Source of the DNA: Dethiobacter alkaliphilus AHT 1
Lineage (GTDB): Bacteria; Bacillota; Dethiobacteria; Dethiobacterales; Dethiobacteraceae
DNA: 64,000 nucleotides
Assembly (NCBI RefSeq): GCF_000174415.1
Contig: NZ_ACJM01000005.1
Coordinates: forward strand, 124,001 to 188,000
Direction of reading: 5' to 3'
Shown: one piece after another, positions 34,526-36,924 of the stretch
How positions within the stretch are numbered: position 1 is the first letter of the stretch
How the letters are laid out: every line of letters starts with the position of its first letter
The notes under the pieces: generated by a model
What the model was told of the DNA's origin: nothing
What the model saw: only the letters and a program-made list of their open reading frames with translations
Databases searched by the model: none
Program-made: the position numbers and the translations under genes

Positions 34526-34888
34526 ATGAAATTTGTATGGTGTACAATTACGGTGAAGAATATGGAAGAATCGTTAAAGTTCTATCAGGAAATTGTAGGT
34601 CTTTCTGTGAATAAAAGATTTACAGCAGGGCCGGAGATGGAATTAGTGTTTTTGGGAGATGGTGAAACACAGGTAGAGCTGATTTGCAATCCTAGCCAAA
34701 AAGCACCGCGGCAGGTTGAGGGAATCTCCATTGGGTTTGAGGTGAAGTCCGTAGATGAAATGATTCAGTACATAAAAGAAAAAGGGTTGGAAGTAGACAG
34801 TGGCCCTTTCCAGCCCAATCCACACGTGAGGTTCTTCTTTGTTAAAGATCCTAACGGTGTGAGTGTTCAGTTTGTAGAGAACGTGTAG
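34526..34888 (+). CDS. VOC-superfamily (glyoxalase/bleomycin-resistance-like) protein
   Basis: 120 residues forming one vicinal-oxygen-chelate unit: WCTITVKNMEESLKFYQEIVGL at the start, LGDGETQVELIC with the first metal-ligand Glu, and DPNGVSVQFVENV with the closing Glu/Gln pattern. Dimers of such proteins are lyases, isomerases or dioxygenases; the reaction is not known. GGAGGGA precedes the ATG. Confidence 0.87.
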   Translation: MKFVWCTITVKNMEESLKFYQEIVGLSVNKRFTAGPEMELVFLGDGETQVELICNPSQKAPRQVEGISIGFEVKSVDEMIQYIKEKGLEVDSGPFQPNPHVRFFFVKDPNGVSVQFVENV

Positions 34889-34945
34889 ACAGCCTTTTCT
34901 CTCTGATTTCATTGCTAATATAGGAATATTTATCAATAGCATGGG

Positions 34946-34974
34946 TTGACAGGAAGAGAATCTGCAGTTATTAT
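34946..34974 (+). promoter_or_regulatory. Strong sigma-A promoter of the HesB-like selenoprotein gene
   Basis: Perfect TTGACA (34946-34951), 17-base spacer, TATTAT (34969-34974, five of six). It is one of the best matches in the window. Transcription would start about 34981, at the palindrome. Confidence 0.85.
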
Positions 34975-34980
34975 GTTTAT

Positions 34981-34997
34981 ATACCCTATTAGGGTAT
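34981..34997 (+). promoter_or_regulatory. Perfect 17-bp palindrome, CsoR/CstR-type operator candidate
   Basis: ATACCCTA-T-TAGGGTAT is a perfect inverted repeat placed at the predicted transcription start, where a bound repressor would block initiation. Operators of the CsoR/CstR/RcnR (DUF156) family are palindromes of the ATACCC...GGGTAT kind. CsoR senses Cu(I) and CstR senses persulfide, and either would fit an Fe-S-related gene. No such regulator gene is in the window. Confidence 0.6.
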
Positions 34998-35031
34998 TGT
35001 GAGATAAGGCTCAAGATAGGTGGTGAGCAAG

Positions 35032-35331
35032 ATGATAAAGGTAACGGAAAAAGCCGTAGAAAAGCTTGAGGAGATTCTGGCAGAAGAAGATAACCGCGAA
35101 AACAAGGCTCTGAGAGTCTCTTTTGGTGGCTTTGGTTGAGGCGGTCCCAAGCTAAAAGTAGCTCTGGATGAGCTGCACGAAGAAGATGACGTAGTTGTGG
35201 AATCAAAAGGTGTGAAGGTAGTTTATGATGAAACAATAGAAAACTTCATTGCCAATTCTGTCATTGATTATTCCACTAATATGTTCTACCGTGGTTTTTA
35301 TGTTAGAGGAGCGGGAATGTCTACCTGTTAA
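35032..35331 (+). CDS. HesB-like selenoprotein (in-frame UGA = selenocysteine)
   Basis: 99 residues if TGA at 35137-35139 is read as selenocysteine (residue 36); otherwise the frame stops after 35. The sequence on both sides is one protein: VTEKAVEKLEEIL, then VSFGGFG-U-GGPKLKVALDE, VVVESKGVKVVYDE, ending GAGMSTC. This is the HesB-like (seleno)protein family (TIGR01911), related to IscA-type Fe-S assembly proteins, where Sec replaces the conserved Cys. The hairpin at 35158-35176 fits a bacterial SECIS. AGGTGGTGA lies five bases before the ATG. It has its own promoter and ends at a hairpin terminator. Role in Fe-S or sulfur chemistry is inferred. Confidence 0.9.
35158..35176 (+). promoter_or_regulatory. 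Bacterial SECIS-like hairpin
   Basis: GTAGCTC (35158-35164) pairs with GAGCTGC (35170-35176) around loop TGGAT. The apical loop starts 25 bases after the TGA and has G in its second position, within the published limits for bacterial SECIS elements. Needed for SelB to insert selenocysteine. Confidence 0.65.
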
Positions 35332-35352
35332 TAGAATAGGCTGCAGTAAAGT

Positions 35353-35380
35353 AAAAGCTACCGCAAATGCGGTAGCTTTT
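35353..35380. terminator. Bidirectional terminator after the selenoprotein gene
   Basis: AAAAGCTACCGCA (35353-35365) pairs with TGCGGTAGCTTTT (35368-35380). It also lies just beyond the stop of the converging lipoprotein gene. Confidence 0.85.
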
Positions 35381-35394
35381 GTAGTAGCGGTGGT

Positions 35395-35910
35395 TTACCA
35401 GGAAAAAGTCCGTTTGGGAACATTGCGGAGGCCTTTTATCAATAACTCCATATTCTCAGTGTCTTCAATGCGGCTTTTTTCAAACTTAAGCAGCATTCTG
35501 GGATGATGACTGTCTCTGCTTATAACAGTAATGTTTCGAGGGGATATTTCTCCGTTGTCGGTACTGAGCACAACGTTATCTTCGTATGAAAAATCCATTA
35601 AGTCGCCGGAGTGTGTTGATAACCACAAATCGAAAATAATATTTTCTTCAAGCTCGTTTTCGGTAACCAGTTCCTCCTCCACGGCGAGTTCATAAAGTTC
35701 AGGGGCAATCCACAATGCCTGTGCCGTTACGCCTTCCTGGGAATCCGTGCTGGAATACTGCTCAATGATGTCCTCCTGCCCGGCATCTTCCTCATAGTTA
35801 TAATCTGCCGCATTATTATCGGCTTCGCCGGGATCGTTGCTGCAACCGGCAAGCAAGAGTCCCGCTGCAAATAAAATGGTCAGGGTTAAGAAATAGATTT
35901 TTTTATTCAT
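35395..35910 (-). CDS. Small lipoprotein, unknown
   Basis: 171 residues with a lipoprotein signal (lipobox LLAGC, Cys about 23). The mature part starts with an acidic, Asn-rich linker and then a domain with LWLSTHSGDLMDFSYEDNVVLSTDNG and ISRDSHHPRMLLKFEKS, which looks like a beta-sandwich. No known family was recognised. It follows the YVTN-repeat lipoprotein gene by 18 bases, so the two are probably co-transcribed and act on the outer face of the membrane. Confidence 0.75.
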   Translation of the reverse strand: MNKKIYFLTLTILFAAGLLLAGCSNDPGEADNNAADYNYEEDAGQEDIIEQYSSTDSQEGVTAQALWIAPELYELAVEEELVTENELEENIIFDLWLSTHSGDLMDFSYEDNVVLSTDNGEISPRNITVISRDSHHPRMLLKFEKSRIEDTENMELLIKGLRNVPKRTFSW

Positions 35911-35928: not shown

Positions 35929-36924
35929 TTAGTTACCTCTAACTATACTAATCTCGTGGGGAGATTGCCCCAACGGGATTTCAGCCAGTTTTTCATAAGT
36001 TGCCGAATCCAGAACAGTAAGTGAGTTGCTACTTGTATCAGTAATATAGACTTCATTGCCGGCGGGATGAAACTTTATATGATTGGGCCTGCCAAAGGTA
36101 ACTGTATCAACAATGCTATACTCATTTTCAACGTCAAAGATGATAATCTCTCCGGTTTTGCTGGCAGCAACCCACACAAATTGACCGTCGGGAGAAACAT
36201 CTACGGCGTGGGTTTCTTCTCCGGCCGGTAAGGAATAGAGGACTTGCCCGTCAGTTGTATCCAGAACCGTTAACATATTGCCCTCATAATTTGCTACATA
36301 CAGCAAATCGCCCTGGGGTGAAGTTCTGGCTTCCTGGGCACCTTCTGCCCCTGTCTGCCAGACAGTTTCAGTAACTAAGTTAACCATATCCACTACAACA
36401 ACGGCACTCTGTTCAGGATCCGCCACATATGCCCGTTTCCCGTCCGGACTGAAAGTAATGTGAGTAGGGCCCACCAGGTCATCCTGAATCACAGTTACTA
36501 CTTCCTGAAGCTCCACATTAATTACCACCAGCGACGGCCCGGAGTTTCTGCCGGCGGCAACCAAAACATAATTTCCGTCCGGACTCATGTCTATCCCGTG
36601 AACCCGCTCCCCCACAGAAATTGTGTTTTTAATTTGATCGGTTGCAGTATCCACTACATAAATATTGCCGCCATCCAAATCACCTGTAAACAGAAGACTG
36701 TTATCCGGCGTGACTCCCAGACCATGAGAGACAGATTCGCCAACATTTATGGTGGCAGTTGTTTGGCGGGTTAGTGAATCAAGCACTGAAACTGTTCCTT
36801 CACCGGCATTGGGGACATAAAGTTTATATGCTTCTTCAGTCTGACTTACCCCGGCGCACCCGGTAACAGTCAGGATTATCCCCATTATCAATACTACAAT
36901 AATAAGGATGACTCGGTTTTTCAT
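35929..36924 (-). CDS. YVTN-type beta-propeller lipoprotein
   Basis: 331 residues with a lipobox (VTGC, Cys about 23) and about seven repeats of the YVTN kind, each with LYVPNAGEGTVSVLD-, PDGNYVLVAA- or PDGQFVWVAAS-like strands (YVADPEQSAVVVVD, YVANYEGNMLTVLD, YITDTSSNSLTVLD). The fold should be a seven-bladed propeller anchored outside the membrane. Such proteins bind surfaces or partner proteins, and some support metal or nitrogen-oxide enzymes; the partner here may be the lipoprotein encoded downstream. Confidence 0.88.
   Translation of the reverse strand: MKNRVILIIVVLIMGIILTVTGCAGVSQTEEAYKLYVPNAGEGTVSVLDSLTRQTTATINVGESVSHGLGVTPDNSLLFTGDLDGGNIYVVDTATDQIKNTISVGERVHGIDMSPDGNYVLVAAGRNSGPSLVVINVELQEVVTVIQDDLVGPTHITFSPDGKRAYVADPEQSAVVVVDMVNLVTETVWQTGAEGAQEARTSPQGDLLYVANYEGNMLTVLDTTDGQVLYSLPAGEETHAVDVSPDGQFVWVAASKTGEIIIFDVENEYSIVDTVTFGRPNHIKFHPAGNEVYITDTSSNSLTVLDSATYEKLAEIPLGQSPHEISIVRGN

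Follow-up and report, generated by a model that had tools for sequence, protein, structure and literature searches.

We predict that a 99-residue HesB-like selenoprotein is encoded at positions 35032-35331 (plus strand) of the window, the 64,000-nucleotide stretch of Dethiobacter alkaliphilus AHT 1 DNA analyzed here, and we consider it nearly certain that the in-frame UGA at codon 36 is read as selenocysteine (Sec). This reading is based on a conserved open frame containing UGA 36, a conserved SECIS hairpin, and the presence of SelA, SelB, SelD, and a tRNA-Sec with a UCA anticodon. Sequence comparison gives good support for regarding the gene as a further member of the already known HesB-like selenoprotein family. 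Its most likely role, proposed with middling confidence, would be to handle iron or Fe-S, as a small protein that employs a selenolate ligand and works beside a single IscU.

Translation of the frame from ATG 35032 to TAA 35331 gives 99 codons followed by TAA, with the TGA at 35137-35139 as the one internal stop. This agrees with the initial annotation, which had reported a single interruption and a 99-residue product with U at position 36 and FGGFG-U-GGPKL at the recoded site. With the TGA written as U, the product is MIKVTEKAVEKLEEILAEEDNRENKALRVSFGGFGUGGPKLKVALDELHEEDDVVVESKGVKVVYDETIENFIANSVIDYSTNMFYRGFYVRGAGMSTC. In addition to the translation, the gene is supported by matches to PF01521 and TIGR00049 and by pN/pS. 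Codon 36 corresponds to the first ligand Cys (Cys35) of IscA, and the sole Cys of the product, Cys99 (35326-35328, plus strand), is a single C-terminal Cys in all seven members from the organism's own family. By inspection, a ribosome-binding-site-like sequence, AGGTGGTGA, lies ahead of the ATG at 35018-35026 (plus strand). A candidate sigma-70 promoter, TTGACA-17-TATTAT (34946-34974, plus strand), ends 58 nt upstream of the ATG and matches the consensus at 11 of 12 positions, a quality for which about 1.3 sites are expected by chance in the region. Downstream, a terminator-like 13-bp hairpin (35352-35381, plus strand; -19.9 kcal/mol) starts 21 nt after the TAA; its z score is -4.17, and none of 200 shuffled sequences was equally stable.

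The surroundings of the gene offer little guidance. Most of the selenoprotein gene is overlapped by an unrelated 197-amino-acid open frame on the minus strand (34643-35236), a possible source of error for gene callers. At 35395-35910 lies a gene for a small acidic lipoprotein-like protein without a known family, adjoining one for a lipoprotein-like beta-propeller with YVTN repeats (35929-36924, minus strand). Genes next to the window gene do not reappear beside its homologues, and gene context therefore gives no function or pathway. An Rfam search of the window returned nothing above threshold, and at the selenoprotein gene the matches did not exceed chance level. A scan of the window for further TGA-interrupted genes yielded nothing convincing, with a filter that hid frames lying under long antisense frames, the selenoprotein gene among them.

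The two sides of the TGA had been proposed to form one HesB-like domain, and profile searches bear this out, in that matches to PF01521 (Fe-S_biosyn; 36.9 bits against a cut-off of 26.3, residues 2-85) and TIGR00049 (61.6 bits against 58.8, residues 2-92) each span the UGA. The proposed comparison with TIGR01911 (HesB_rel_seleno) had a mixed outcome. The protein is a HesB-like selenoprotein in the published sense, with the UxGP motif, but it scores 46.5 bits against a curated cut-off of 66.35 and so falls outside the curated set. Similarly, NF038090 (IscA_HesB_Se) matches nearly the whole length at 55.9 bits, below its curated cut-off of 85. All ten homologues tested score under the NF038090 cut-off, every other homologue tested falls under those of both TIGR01911 and NF038090, and the TIGR01911 cut-off is passed in none of 398 genomes of the phylum, though most top matches carry one TGA. 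These cut-offs therefore overlook a large part of the HesB-like selenoprotein family, and the low score of the window protein is no sign that it is something else.

HesB-like selenoproteins were already included in a 2006 survey of bacterial selenoproteins (PMC1794560), and a 2026 review describes them as an experimentally verified family with the motif UxGP (PMC13188914). In Methanococcus maripaludis, the HesB-like selenoprotein was identified by mutagenesis and 75Se labelling, and disruption of its gene left nitrogen fixation unimpaired (PMC11097638). The window protein shares with this family the IscA/HesB domain, Sec at the conserved Cys, and a SECIS right after the UGA, and its UGGP fits the family motif. 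It differs in belonging to a divergent family-level clade (support 100/97), in its one C-terminal Cys, and in its TIGR01911 score.

The UGA is conserved throughout the class. Among 98 class genomes, 67 contained a total of 70 matches, 69 of which have exactly one TGA; the remaining match is a fragment without the codon. At the position of the TGA, the 69 matches covering the codon have TGA in every case and Cys in none, and their translations place it at the same site, in nearly all of them within G-x-G-U-G-G-P. This codon also aligns with the GCSG Cys of solved IscA/ErpA-type chains, as expected from the earlier suggestion that the TGA occupies the family's conserved Cys. No full-length homologue ending at residue 35 was found among the 98 class genomes. 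In the organism's own family, the full gene is present in 7 of 20 genomes, including that of D. alkaliphilus, each time with one TGA, and the alignment of these seven proteins has 36 invariant columns. Within this clade, pN/pS (Nei-Gojobori) is 0.33 before the TGA and 0.38 after it, and this similarity indicates that the region 3' of the UGA is selected as protein.

In a tree of 72 sequences, the seven own-family proteins form a group whose branch is long (0.68 changes per column); the alignment has few columns, and the tree supports this clade but leaves its placement unsettled. Seventeen of 18 Cys forms also group together (98/94). One Cys form (L171, G100:C13:22696-22962) is nested among Sec forms (90/88) and lacks the hairpin pairing, an apparent Sec-to-Cys change. 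In a relative (G002) that shares its genus with two genomes carrying the gene, only the final 41 or so codons are left in frame, on the minus strand (L157, G002:C34:5906-6022), and the first half with the TGA was not found just upstream; this remnant suggests loss of the gene. Several divergent class members (L148, L150, L151, L152, and L153) keep the TGA and have mostly lost the Cys-rich tail, with forms such as SVTUGGP and EKUGIP, and some of them are found in genomes with a second copy.

The initial annotation had also pointed to a hairpin with a G-containing loop beginning 18 bases after the UGA. We located it at 35158-35176 (plus strand) as GUAGCUC-UGGAU-GAGCUGC, in which 35158-35164 pairs with 35170-35176 around the loop UGGAU (35165-35169), 25 nt from the UGA. 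As in bacterial SECIS elements, a G is among the first two bases of its apical loop. Judged by folding energy, the single hairpin is unexceptional (z -0.92), and we therefore relied instead on covariation and on a null of resampled synonymous codons. In the 67 Sec homologues, the proportion of stem cells that pair is 93%, compared to 49% (sd 2%) under synonymous-codon resampling, and none of 2000 resamplings was as high. For the seven own-family genes, pairing is 100% versus 54.5% under the same null, again with 0 of 2000 as high; the window gene alone is modestly above the null, its pairing being reached in 33 of 2000 resamplings.

Codon choice and compensatory change point in the same direction. 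All 67 Sec homologues use CTG for the Leu at the inner stem and loop, and 66 of them use GAG for the Glu that follows the loop, a codon accounting for 128 of 515 Glu codons elsewhere in the same genes. In a set of 32 distinct class and phylum sequences, the share of cells that pair is 96%, and five of the seven pairs show changes at both positions; shifting the partner by one to three columns lowers pairing to 22-46%. The 42 Cys homologues, used as a negative control, show 41.5% pairing; all five inner pairs are formed in none of them, compared to 66 of the 67 Sec homologues. Judging from these alignments, the hairpin is kept by compensatory changes, far beyond chance.

The D. alkaliphilus genome (3.11 Mb, 99.5% complete), of which the window represents part of contig C5, also contains the Sec machinery that the earlier reading of the gene implied, namely selA, selB, selC, and selD. 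In profile searches, selA (586 bits), selB (389 bits), and selD (385 bits) all exceed their cut-offs, and the three genes adjoin in one direction within 4.3 kb (C1:107068-111301). The tRNA-Sec gene (selC, C1:86930) has a UCA anticodon, an 8-bp acceptor stem, and a long variable arm. Since selA is found in 89 of the 98 class genomes, its co-occurrence with the HesB-like gene is uninformative. The SelD gene (L010 1501-2427; G000:C1:110375-111301) likewise encodes a selenoprotein, its one in-frame TGA lying near the N terminus (GGUAAK). A second tRNA-Sec-like gene of 94 nt (L018 1501-1594; G000:C3:124334-124427), with an 8-bp acceptor stem, a long variable arm, and a GCA (Cys) anticodon, scores 58.5 bits, over the tRNA-Sec cut-off, and resembles the selC* tRNA-Cys class, some members of which bear a UCA anticodon elsewhere (PMC7609411). 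TGA is also used as an ordinary stop: of 46 long open frames retained in the window, 11 end with it.

Structural modeling is consistent with a predicted IscA-type fold. The AlphaFold2 model (mean pLDDT 81, pTM 0.66) matches IscA, HI1723, AQ_1857, and SufA at TM 0.65-0.74, with 1r94, 2apn, 1s98, 1nwb, and 2d2a as its best PDB matches. The C-terminal tail has pLDDT below 50, and thus the distance from Sec to Cys99 is not fixed by the model. The likeness to the A-type carriers IscA, SufA, and ErpA extends from this fold to the sequence, as the matches above the TIGR00049 and PF01521 cut-offs show. A-type carriers have three ligand Cys, in GCSG and CxC, whereas the window protein has Sec in place of the first and the single Cys99 in place of the C-terminal CxC. 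Cys-rich C-terminal tails, for example, CGSCSC, are found in most of the remaining class members.

From the established bacterial pathway, we infer that SelB bound to the hairpin would bring Sec-tRNA to the UGA. With selenium available, the ribosome would then complete the protein, whereas in its absence a 35-residue stub would result. The product would adopt the IscA/SufA beta fold, in which Sec36 would replace the first cluster-ligand Cys and Cys99 alone would be left to serve as a further soft ligand or as a redox partner. The genome encodes one IscU; searches of it found no SufB/D and no Fe-S_biosyn protein other than the selenoprotein. Searches of the organism's own family turned up no Cys-type Fe-S_biosyn protein, and the majority of its members lack both forms, which indicates that Fe-S assembly across the family does not depend on the protein. 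The proposed role in iron or Fe-S handling rests on homology to proteins whose A-type cluster site is completed by the C-terminal CxC that is missing here. A more specific idea, which we consider unlikely, is that the only A-type-fold protein of the cell in this lineage is a selenoprotein bearing one C-terminal Cys and holding iron or a cluster via its selenolate, in the presence of one IscU and no SufB/D. If true, this would constitute a selenium-dependent variant of Fe-S cluster assembly.

Two alternatives concern the decoding of the UGA. One is that translation ends at the UGA in what would be a recent pseudogene, or that the TGA is a sequencing error. The codon is, after all, a stop codon in the frame, and the gene can be lost, as in the G002 genome, which retains only the 3' half. 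However, six further genomes of the family, each sequenced independently, share this TGA, as do homologues throughout the class; selection after it is intact, and the SECIS hairpin covaries. We rule out both pseudogene and sequencing error on the basis of the conserved TGA, downstream frame, and hairpin, and their probability is vanishingly small. Alternatively, the UGA might be read as Cys or Trp via a suppressor tRNA or a changed genetic code, a notion to which the second, Sec-like tRNA with a Cys anticodon lends some interest, given the UCA-bearing members of its class elsewhere (PMC7609411). The GCA anticodon of the tRNA in this genome cannot read UGA, though, and the hairpin is gone in Cys homologues. 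Because TGA often serves as a normal stop in the window, and because the TGA of this gene, its downstream frame, and the hairpin are conserved, we reject a changed code; decoding as Cys or Trp is very improbable.

The main alternative for the biochemical step keeps the selenoprotein reading and differs in the role assigned to the protein. The IscA scaffold may support a selenol redox enzyme or a sulfur or selenium carrier, not an Fe-S carrier, with Sec36 and Cys99 forming a selenenylsulfide or holding a persulfide. The presence of only one Cys besides Sec is compatible with this role, most selenoproteins of unassigned function are thought to be redox proteins (PMC13188914), and the flexible Cys-rich tails of class homologues (CGSCSC) could act as resolving thiols. 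On the other hand, the fold and the position of Sec are those of A-type Fe-S carriers, and the protein has no UxxC or CxxU motif. We regard a redox or carrier role as a tentative possibility of some weight, and iron or Fe-S handling beside IscU as the most likely role.

The existence of this gene bears on how selenoproteins are annotated. Here, a real gene is cut in two by ordinary rules, and it scores under the curated models meant to catch such genes. With its class-wide TGA, absence of a Cys form, and covariation of the hairpin, the class supplies a clean set of examples from which the annotation of selenoproteins could be improved. Should the Fe-S role be correct, this protein would provide a natural test of why a cluster-assembly protein uses selenium where almost all others use sulfur.
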